Shown here one piece after another: positions 56,103-58,777 of a DNA stretch of 64,000 nt (position 1 is the first letter of the stretch; each line of letters opens with the position of its first letter). The position numbers were made by a program, and so were the translations under genes. The notes under the pieces are model-generated. The model saw only the letters and a program-made list of their open reading frames with translations, did not search any database and was not told the origin of the DNA. Source of the stretch: Salinibaculum litoreum (lineage in GTDB: Archaea > Halobacteriota > Halobacteria > Halobacteriales > Haloarculaceae); the NCBI GenBank assembly GCA_009789175.1, contig CP046866.1, positions 2,976,001-3,040,000 of the forward strand, written 5' to 3'.

Positions 56103-58268
56103 TTATCGAATCTTCGTCCCCGGCTCGCTGTCGCCGTGGGTCCGCAGCAGGTCCGCGTCCTCGCCGGCCGCGAGTACCATCCCGTCGGATTCGTAGCCAA
56201 ACAGCTCCGCTTTCTCCATGTTCGCCAGCAGGACACACTTCGTACCCGGCAACGCATCGGCGTCGTGCAGTCCCTGGATGCCGGCGACGACCTGTCGCGT
56301 TTCGATGCCGATGTCGACTTCCAGTCGCATGAGGTTGTCCGAGTCCTCGATGGCCTCGGCGGCGGTAATCTCGCCGACTCGCAGGTCCAGTTCCTGGAAG
56401 TCCTCGAAGCCGATGCGCTCCTCGGCCAGCGGTTCGAAGTCTGCAGCCGCCTCGCCGTCCGCGGAGTCGGCTGTTTCACTTCCTGCGTCTTCGTCGTCTT
56501 CGCTGTCGGCATCCTCGCTCGCCGCTGCGACCCGTTCACGGAGCGTTTCGTTGAGGGCTTCGACCTCCTCGTCTTCGATTTCGGCAAACAACTCCGCGGG
56601 CGCGTCGAACCCGGCAGGTGGCTCCGCGAGCGCATCGCTCAACTCTGCATCGGCGACGCTCCCGTCCTCGTTTAGCTGCTCCCACAGCGTCTCGGCCTTC
56701 TCGGGCATCACCGGCTGCATCAACACGGCACAGGCCTTTGCCAGCTGCACACAGTCCCGGATGACCTGTGCGGCCTGCTCCGGGTCGTCGTCGACGAGGT
56801 TCCAGGGCTCGTTGCGCTGGATGTATCCGTTCCCGAAGTCCGCGAGGTCGACCGCCACGTCCGCTACATCGCGGATGGTGTACTCCGCCACTGCGTCCTC
56901 GAAGTCGGCGATGGCGTCCTGAATCGCCTCGCGTACTTCCTCGCTCACGTCGGCGTCGGGCGTCCCGTCGTAGTTACGGTGTGCAAAGAGCAGACCCCGG
57001 TAACAGAAGTTCCCGAGGTTGCCGACGAGTTCGCTGTTGACGCGTTGCTGGAAGCGGTCCCACGAGAAGTCCACGTCCTGTTCTAACCCCGACCCCGTCG
57101 TGATGTAGTACCGGAACAGGTCCGGGTGGAAGTCGGTATCCAGATACTCTTCGGCCCAGACAGCGCGGTTGCGCGATGTCGAGAGGGCCTTCCCGTCGAT
57201 GCCGACAAAGCCGGTCGCCAGCACCGCACGCGGCTCGTTGTAGCCCGCCCCGCGGAGCATCGCCGGCCAGAAGACGGTGTGGTGCTGAATGATATCCCGG
57301 CCGATGATGTGGATGATTTCGCCGGCATCGTCGGTCCAGTCGTCGTCCCACTCCGTGCCGGGTCGGGCCTCGCCACCGGGTTTCCAGACCTCCTCCCAGT
57401 CGTAGGTCTCGGTGCCGACCTGCTCGGTGTACTGTTTCGTCGCGGAGACGTACTCGATAGGCGCATCCACCCAGACGTACAGTACCAGTTCCTCGGCGGT
57501 TTCGCCGGCCTCGGGGTCGTCCTCGGCGGGGTAGTCGATACCCCAGTCCATATCCCGCGTGATACAGAGGTCCTGCAGTTCGCCCTCTATCCACTCGCGG
57601 GGCTGGTTGCGGGCGTTTTCGGTCCCTTCCAGTCGGTCGATAAACTCCTGGAGGTACTCCTGGAAATCCGACAGCCGGAGGAATTTGTGTTCGCGCGTGC
57701 GGTACTCGGCCGGATTGCCCGTCAGTGTCGAGACGGGGTCTTCGATTTCGCCGGGTTCGAGGTGGCGCTGACAGCCCTCGTCGCACTCGTCGCCGCGGGC
57801 GTGCTCGCCACAGTAGGGACAGGTCCCCTCGACGTAGCGGTCGGGAAGGGGTTGGTCTTCCTCGCTGTCCCAGGCGACTTGAATCTCCTTTTCGATGACT
57901 ACGTCCTGGTCGATCCACGAGCGGACGAACTCGCGTGTCGTCTCCGTGTTGGTCTCGTCGTGGGTATGACCGTAGTTGTCGAACTCGACGTTGAACTGCG
58001 GGAACGTCGCCTCGTATTGCTCGTGATACGCCAGCGCGAACTCCTCGGGGTCCGTGCCTTCTTCGGCGGCGTTGACGGCGATGGGCGTTCCGTGCATATC
58101 CGACCCACAGACGAACGCTGCCTGCTGGCCGATGCGGTCGAGTGCCCGTGTGTAGGCATCGCCGACGACGTAGGTCCGAAGGTGGCCCACGTGCAGGTCG
58201 CCGTTTGCGTAGGGCAACCCGCAGGTGACCACCGCCGGATTGTCCGTCGGCAGCTGGTCGTGGCTCAT
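56103..58268 (-). CDS. metG: Methionyl-tRNA synthetase with C-terminal tRNA-binding domain
   Basis: A 721-residue class I synthetase. The HIGH motif is YANGDLHVGHLRTY (HVGH 26-29) and the KMSKS counterpart is KALSTSRNRAVW. The zinc knuckle is CPYCGEHARGDECDEGC. After the helical anticodon domain there is an acidic linker rich in Glu, Asp and Ser (about 590-625), then a C-terminal EMAP/Trbp111-type tRNA-binding domain (FEDFQELDLRVGEITAAEAI; MRLEVDIGIETRQVVAGIQG). The start at 58268 lies 27 bp after a T-rich TATA box. The upstream DNA (58320-58722) is a hairpin array beyond the promoter. Confidence 0.97.
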   Translation of the reverse strand: MSHDQLPTDNPAVVTCGLPYANGDLHVGHLRTYVVGDAYTRALDRIGQQAAFVCGSDMHGTPIAVNAAEEGTDPEEFALAYHEQYEATFPQFNVEFDNYGHTHDETNTETTREFVRSWIDQDVVIEKEIQVAWDSEEDQPLPDRYVEGTCPYCGEHARGDECDEGCQRHLEPGEIEDPVSTLTGNPAEYRTREHKFLRLSDFQEYLQEFIDRLEGTENARNQPREWIEGELQDLCITRDMDWGIDYPAEDDPEAGETAEELVLYVWVDAPIEYVSATKQYTEQVGTETYDWEEVWKPGGEARPGTEWDDDWTDDAGEIIHIIGRDIIQHHTVFWPAMLRGAGYNEPRAVLATGFVGIDGKALSTSRNRAVWAEEYLDTDFHPDLFRYYITTGSGLEQDVDFSWDRFQQRVNSELVGNLGNFCYRGLLFAHRNYDGTPDADVSEEVREAIQDAIADFEDAVAEYTIRDVADVAVDLADFGNGYIQRNEPWNLVDDDPEQAAQVIRDCVQLAKACAVLMQPVMPEKAETLWEQLNEDGSVADAELSDALAEPPAGFDAPAELFAEIEDEEVEALNETLRERVAAASEDADSEDDEDAGSETADSADGEAAADFEPLAEERIGFEDFQELDLRVGEITAAEAIEDSDNLMRLEVDIGIETRQVVAGIQGLHDADALPGTKCVLLANMEKAELFGYESDGMVLAAGEDADLLRTHGDSEPGTKIR

Positions 58269-58290
58269 GTCTCCCCATTCCGAGACGCCA

Positions 58291-58299
58291 CCAAAAAAC
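58291..58299 (-). promoter_or_regulatory. TATA-like box of metG
   Basis: On the minus strand gttttttgg is centred about 27 bp before the metG ATG, predicting a leaderless mRNA. The box separates metG from the hairpin array, so the array is not in the metG leader. Confidence 0.6.
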
Positions 58300-58319
58300 T
58301 CCGCCGGTTCCCAATCACC

Positions 58320-58722
58320 TTTTTGCCGCGAATGGTGCGCTTCGCGCACCCGGGCGGCAAAAACGTCCGCAGAAATCTTCGATTTCTGCCGTCGAAGCCA
58401 ATCACGGATTGGCTGACCATTGGAGAGAAAAGCTCTCCAAGAGGCTGTCCTCAGAACGCGTCGCGTTCTGATGGGCATGGAAGACGCACGCGTCTTCCAT
58501 ACTGCGGAAGAGCACTGCTCTTCCGAACGTGGGCGAAAAAGACCCGGCGCTCACTACGTTCGCGCCGCGGGAACCGCCTCGCTTCGCTCGGCGGATGCTT
58601 TCCCAACCGCACATAGCCCCCTACGCATTGTATCGGTGGGTACGAGCATCCGCGCGACCGAAGGGAGCGCGGTTCTCTGAACCGAGGACGAAGGCCGAGG
58701 TTCAGCCTTTTTCGCCCACGTT
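58320..58722. repeat. Array of short hairpins and a 197-bp bounded domain between mfnA and metG
   Basis: The 509-bp gap 58269-58777 has no gene. Perfect inverted repeats follow one another: 58320-58329 with 58354-58363 (enclosing 58334-58340 with 58344-58350), 58369-58377 with 58381-58389, 58396-58403 with 58407-58414, 58420-58427 with 58433-58440, 58451-58459 with 58463-58471, 58477-58487 with 58490-58500, and 58505-58513 with 58517-58525. Stems are 7-11 bp with loops of 2-5 nt and differ in sequence. Then 58526-58541 pairs perfectly (16 bp) with 58707-58722, closing a domain with more pairs (58571-58577 with 58669-58675; 58591-58598 with 58646-58653; 58677-58683 with 58699-58705). Confidence 0.92.
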
Positions 58723-58766
58723 TTTCGAGGAGTGGTGTGCGACCAACGGGAGCACACCCGACGATG

Positions 58767-58771
58767 AAAAA
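58767..58771 (-). terminator. Possible U-tract terminator of mfnA
   Basis: On the minus strand the mfnA stop is followed within seven bases by ttttt (58771 to 58767), a U-run of the archaeal type. More T-runs (58721-58725, and those at the hairpin bases) follow on both strands. Confidence 0.4.
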
Positions 58772-58777
58772 GGTGGT

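Follow-up and report, generated by a model that had tools for sequence, protein, structure and literature searches.

The 64,000-nt stretch of Salinibaculum litoreum DNA analysed here (the window) holds a dense run of hairpins between the end of mfnA (58778) and the start of metG (~58268), both on the minus strand, and the question is what such an array is and how it came to lie there. A preliminary description, made from the letters of the sequence, had proposed at least seven adjacent perfect hairpins with stems of 7-11 bp and loops of 2-5 nt, followed by a domain closed by a perfect 16-bp stem. We located seven disjoint perfect hairpins at 58334-58350, 58369-58389, 58396-58414, 58420-58440, 58451-58471, 58477-58500 and 58505-58525, with the proposed stem lengths and a slightly wider range of loops, 1-5 nt; the closing stem (58526-58541 with 58707-58722) was exact, and the array does lie between the two genes. 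Its seven hairpins in 206 bp are far beyond chance, as 1000 dinucleotide shuffles averaged 0.08 hairpins and never gave more than 2. The scan for an equal density elsewhere found none, either in these shuffles or in the rest of the 64-kb window, where any 206-bp stretch contains at most two hairpins. The folding stability of the array also greatly exceeded that of shuffled sequence on both strands (z = -13.9 and -12.6). The metG reading frame is open beyond its conserved start, through the array to 58478 (56103-58478, minus strand); gene calls made automatically may thus carry MetG too far upstream, into the hairpins.

Based on comparisons with other copies of its parts, the array is very probably made up of non-autonomous mobile palindromic DNA elements nested in one another. 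The segments of the window involved are as follows.

58316-58365, unstranded: left part of a dispersed repeat, D, reading CACCTTTTTG-hairpin-CAAAAACG and with the target dinucleotide CG (58364-58365) as its last two bases.
58364-58447, plus strand: left portion of the outer four-hairpin element, CG/TCC(GCAGAAATC)CGTCGAAG(CCAATC)CTGACCA(TTGGAGAG)GAGGC-TG, matching a copy on a Haloterrigena salifodinae plasmid (L010).
58446-58504, plus strand: inner twin-hairpin (two-hairpin) element, TG/TCC(TCAGAACGCG)TGGGC(ATGGAAGACGC)AC/TG, matching covariance model R1 and sitting at a TG in the last linker of the outer element.
58505-58529, plus strand: right end of the outer element, (CGGAAGAGC..)AA/CG, with the fourth hairpin and the AACG family end.
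58530-58600, unstranded: repeat D resuming after the insertion, TGGGCGAAAAAG...GGATGCT, recognised by BLAST to L005 and L303.
58645-58776, unstranded: second copy of repeat D, inverted, AGCATCCGC...CCTTTTTCGCCCACGTTTTT-hairpin-AAAAAGGTGG, recognised by own-genome BLAST hits to query 346-441.

The array is thus a nest three deep, since a four-hairpin element lies in repeat D and a two-hairpin element lies inside the four-hairpin element. The first of the seven hairpins makes up the inner portion of a longer hairpin, TTTTTGCCGC...GCGGCAAAAA, which belongs to repeat D and not to the hairpin family. The outer element shares 81.7% identity over 82 bp with the H. salifodinae plasmid copy and has further four-hairpin relatives (L009, L011 and L275-L282), Natrialbaceae plasmids among them; it carries CG at both ends, as do 121 of the 136 unique family copies. 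The inner element matches model R1 at 58446-58503 (54 bits, E 5.7e-12), and its excision restores a four-hairpin element of about 107-109 nt that aligns with L010 and L276 with no internal gap. In genome G001 (L026), from a congener of S. litoreum, the same inner element is located at the TG of another element's linker. The fourth hairpin of the outer element has diverged from the plasmid copies, which is a point against the nest. Taken together, the alignments show that the elements in the window are nested.

Repeat D is a sequence in its own right. Its core, CCTTTTTNGCNNANRTTTTT, has 22 exact copies in the S. litoreum genome, ten of which form one 171-bp tandem array (G000:C1:2703790-2705409), while a reversed-pattern control gave none. 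The mfnA-metG interval contains two D copies, whose inverted arrangement explains the 16-bp stem. The left copy is interrupted at a CG, AAAAACG^TGGGCGAAAAAG. Two further copies of D from this genome run through this point without a break: L005, which reads GCAAAAACGTGGGCGAAAAAGAC and is 86% identical over 79 bp to the window copy with the array spliced out, and L303. Conversely, twin hairpins occupy this point of D in at least a dozen other loci, at the identical CG in L083, L088, L091, L042, L047, L232, L128, L129, L154, L177 and L209, and with CA replacing CG in L026 and L046. These pairs of empty and occupied copies show a recurrent target in repeat D.

The composition of D bears on the possibility that the locus is a bank of terminators, in which T-tract hairpins end mfnA transcription and shield metG, extra copies being tolerated. 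D has T5/A5 tracts beside its hairpins and lies directly after the mfnA stop codon, and the genome contains at least 22 copies of its core. Nevertheless, the T/A tracts are part of D; within the inserted block (58366-58527), none of the six hairpins has T tracts of its own, and D occurs elsewhere as the same sequence without inserted hairpins. We therefore consider it unlikely that termination accounts for the array; it may be a property of repeat D rather than the reason for the hairpins.

The preliminary description had held that the hairpins share no sequence, and this did not stand: hairpins and linkers match a recurring family with conserved ends, of which single hairpins and pairs were found in many other haloarchaea when relatives were searched with the array. 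The family unit has the consensus CG/TCC(CAGAA stem)TGGGCTG(AGAGC stem)AA/CG and a length of 53-60 nt in the 136 copies. Hairpin 1 consists of a CGTCC head and a 9-bp stem with a triloop (TCAGAAnnC nnn GnnTTCTGA); a linker, TGGGCTG or TGTGCGA, leads to hairpin 2, with a stem of 8-11 bp (..AGAGC nnn GCTCT..) followed by AACG. The ends, CGTCC and AACG, are only weakly inverted. At the level of sequence, the match of the array hairpins to this unit shows their membership in the family. The earlier suggestion of a process that makes short palindromes was therefore right in spirit, the process being repeated insertion, while that of unrelated sequences selected for structure was not, the hairpins being modules of one family.

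The family appears to span the class. Of 194 Halobacteria genomes, 186 matched model R1 (E up to 0.01), with every one of the 66 sampled genera represented; as 28 candidates were scored per genome and some genomes hold 28 copies or more, the copy counts are lower bounds. Sampling across the phylum gave 36 matching genomes, of which 32 were Halobacteria. The other four, from the same phylum (G245, G254, G261 and G352), gave weak matches (E 1e-7 to 5e-5), which may reflect either remote relatives of the element or palindromes that arose by chance. An exact-pattern search over GTDB species genomes returned at least 80 loci, all from Halobacteria among the matches listed. A phage collection searched with the twin hairpin and its flanks gave no match, Rfam gave no family match (chance-level hits only, outside the array), and no description of the class-wide family was found in the open-licence literature. 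In genome G043, loci L034 and L050 consist of twin hairpins repeated in tandem every ~57-58 bp, neighbours sharing a CG, as if each unit had been inserted at the end of the previous one.

The junctions of these units were examined in the 136 unique copies, which start with CG in 129 cases, end with CG in 123 and do both in 121. For 67 copies, a clean uninterrupted homologous site was available at another locus, and 43 of these homologues have CG at the junction. The junctions share the dinucleotide CG only, and target duplication is absent. The clearest pair consists of two near-identical IS605 elements, L093 and L094, which differ by exactly 57 nt: L093 is empty, CCCGCCGTTCACGGC^GGGCGTGAATC, whereas L094 carries a twin hairpin at the marked position, within its near-terminal palindrome. 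The same class of site recurs in L104/L108 and in L116, and the copies of a Haloquadratum MAG (L258-L266) share one common recurrent insertion site. In L099 (1300-1400), a different short hairpin lies in the IS605 near-terminal palindrome that the twin hairpin occupies in L094. Among the sequences that host the units are IS6-type transposases (DDE_Tnp_IS240), TnpB and a histidine kinase. These comparisons show insertion as discrete blocks with CG ends. The sites themselves tend to be palindromic: once joined, empty sites are more stably folded than either random CG sites (p 9e-6) or shuffled versions of themselves (p 6e-8), and their target CG is preferentially in the 3′ arm (65 versus 27, compared with 172 versus 184 in controls), these tests being indicative because many of the target sites are mutually related IS6-type transposase genes and the statistics are not fully independent.

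The association with IS605 raises the possibility that the elements are PATEs, that is, terminal-only remnants of IS605-type transposons whose left and right palindromic ends have fused. Their size and shape are similar to those of the 52-bp palindromic PATE remnants of Haloquadratum (PMC3119063), and twin hairpins are often found beside TnpA or TnpB genes. However, the twin hairpin of the L093/L094 pair interrupts the different palindrome that IS605 itself carries near its end, no element with a clear gene between the two hairpins occurred among 193 hairpin-1 sites, and the target is a CG core rather than a conserved terminal tetranucleotide. A PATE origin is thus distinctly improbable.

In intact genes, the insert is 54, 57 or 60 nt long and always has one orientation and one frame, encoding a peptide like VRKTTESSSAAHQNAERSED with the pattern V..T...AHQN..SED. 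In-frame copies were located in trpB (L179, L184 and L185, the first two called from the translated sequence and not by the Pfam scan), fibrillarin (L141), an ABC ATPase (ABC_tran, L178), a UvrD-type helicase/nuclease (UvrD_C, L200), NAD(P)HX dehydratase (Carb_kinase, L168), histidine kinases (L133 and L148) and TnpB (L163, L144, L124, L035 and L164). The L133 and L148 kinases contain repeated NAVEHGSTS segments, hairpin-like as DNA, which host the in-frame insert. Open passage in this frame was found in 16 of the 29 copies with a length divisible by three versus 18 of the 105 others (p 9e-5, a test in which related host genes are not independent). The 56-nt insert of L191 lies in a host gene that appears broken, and no in-frame gene insertion was seen for the window copy.

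The palindromes change in a characteristic way. In the stems of the first 20 aligned copies, 46 cells showed two-sided compensating changes versus 2 with one-sided changes; 90 further distinct copies, in an alignment fitted to the R1 model, gave 265 versus 14, and G-U pairs were almost absent. RNA helices, by comparison, normally drift via G-U pairs. Because two-sided changes so outnumber one-sided ones and G-U pairs are so rare, these counts show a palindrome apparently maintained as DNA and not as RNA.

This bears directly on whether the array is a structured regulatory or small RNA (a leader, a riboswitch-like or multi-hairpin RNA) selected at metG. The very stable fold on both strands and the strong covariation in the family would suit such an RNA; against it stand the lack of an Rfam match, the near absence of stem changes via G-U, as for DNA palindromes, and the presence of the same units at unrelated sites, including the inside of genes. 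Nor is the array conserved in relatives: in G010, mfnA still precedes metG with a gap of ~65 bp free of hairpins and array, and in G001 and other relatives the sequence upstream of metG differs. Comparison of the gap in relatives ruled out that the array is a leader of metG or a conserved RNA; we infer that it has no present role for metG, and an RNA selected here is very improbable.

The triloops give a further indication of how the units behave. In the 136 copies, hairpin 1 has both orientations of its triloop in approximately equal numbers (GAA 32 and TTC 31; GGA 19 and TCC 11; AAA 13 and TTT 8), while in hairpin 2 one orientation strongly prevails (TTC 42 versus GAA 5) and the triloop is almost always TTC, TCC or TTT. 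These equal orientations suggest that hairpin 1 inverts independently of hairpin 2, for example by cutting at its base. Local generation of palindromes by template switching or cruciform repair without mobile insertion would agree with the nearly always perfect stems and with a triloop that seems to flip, but it hardly merits credence given a head, linker and tail conserved over many genera and blocks that are present or absent as whole units.

Under the preferred reading of the array as nested mobile elements, the following history may be proposed. A terminator-like dispersed repeat, D, in two inverted copies between mfnA and metG, would have been the host; a four-hairpin element would have inserted at the CG of the left copy, and a two-hairpin element of the same family would then have inserted at the TG in the last linker of the four-hairpin element. 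Movement would most likely proceed as single-stranded DNA hairpins, with cutting and joining at CG (rarely TG or CA) by a putative recombinase supplied in trans and a preference for sites that are themselves hairpins; because of this preference, copies would pile up into arrays. As to the mobiliser, a Y1/HUH transposase resident in the genome was considered and rejected for its lack of association with copy number: no PF01797 match was found in the S. litoreum genome, and the domain is present in 29 of 58 relatives, whose copy number does not follow it. Since several genomes without PF01797 carry 10-17 copies, a Y1 transposase does not seem to be required in the same genome. In its broadest form, the proposal is that class-wide hairpin elements move as folded single-stranded DNA, insert at CG inside hairpins (transposon recognition hairpins, transposase genes and their own copies) and have coding-compatible lengths that add 18-20 amino acids in frame, as an archaeal counterpart of REP and RPE with a putative recombinase; we advance this form tentatively, as possible rather than probable.

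REP-type palindromes are known mainly from bacteria, and Rickettsia palindromic elements (RPE) are palindromic units that occur both between genes and, in frame, within protein genes. The twin hairpins likewise occur in frame in intact genes and in intergenic DNA, and differ from RPE in lineage and sequence. RPE have been treated as CGTC-tagged REPs, which have an unpaired CGTC head, an 8-9 bp stem and loops of 4-5 nt, have no known dedicated transposase and are listed from no archaea (PMC3733652). With its CGTCC head and 9-bp stem, the twin hairpin resembles these REPs, as it does in its paired units, conserved linkers, insertion into palindromes and intragenic copies; in contrast, its hairpin-1 loops are 3 nt long and the heads of its paired units point outward. 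It is also unlike the REPs mobilised by RAYT/TnpA_REP in that no Y1 transposase was found flanked by the repeat, and archaea are reported to have only TnpA subclass 1.1, REP-type TnpA being absent (PMC6006769). Like PATEs and IS605 palindromes, the twin hairpins are short, palindromic, haloarchaeal and free of a transposase, but they insert into IS605 palindromes and are not IS605 ends.

Among the haloarchaeal small mobile repeats, reported in 2011 with a mobilisation called enigmatic, SMR-A of Haloquadratum walsbyi (HqIRS42, HqIRS43 and HqIRS55) is ~110 bp long with prominent terminal inverted repeats and no coding capacity; it inserts without target duplication in near-terminal palindromes of IS605-type transposons and PATEs (PMC3119063). 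The twin hairpins are similarly short, non-coding and without target duplication, they occupy IS605 near-terminal palindromes (L093/L094; the window copy lies in repeat D instead), and their four-hairpin form, ~107 bp, is close to the 110 bp of SMR-A. They differ, in a comparison made by description only, in that their basic unit is a 54-60 bp twin hairpin that lacks long inverted terminal repeats, and in that SMR-A was described from one species whereas twin hairpins are class-wide and found in repeats and genes. What they offer is an anatomically defined unit that is found across the class, inserts at an exact dinucleotide, returns to a recurrent target and is documented by dozens of paired empty and occupied sites as well as by in-frame copies in cellular genes. 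The search for the recombinase, and for effects on host proteins and on the transposition of IS605, thereby becomes directly testable in tractable Haloferax strains. We therefore place the family beside and not within the known groups: it is best called a kind of small palindromic mobile repeat that works like REP, RPE and, as far as its description goes, SMR-A, filed as a member of none of them.
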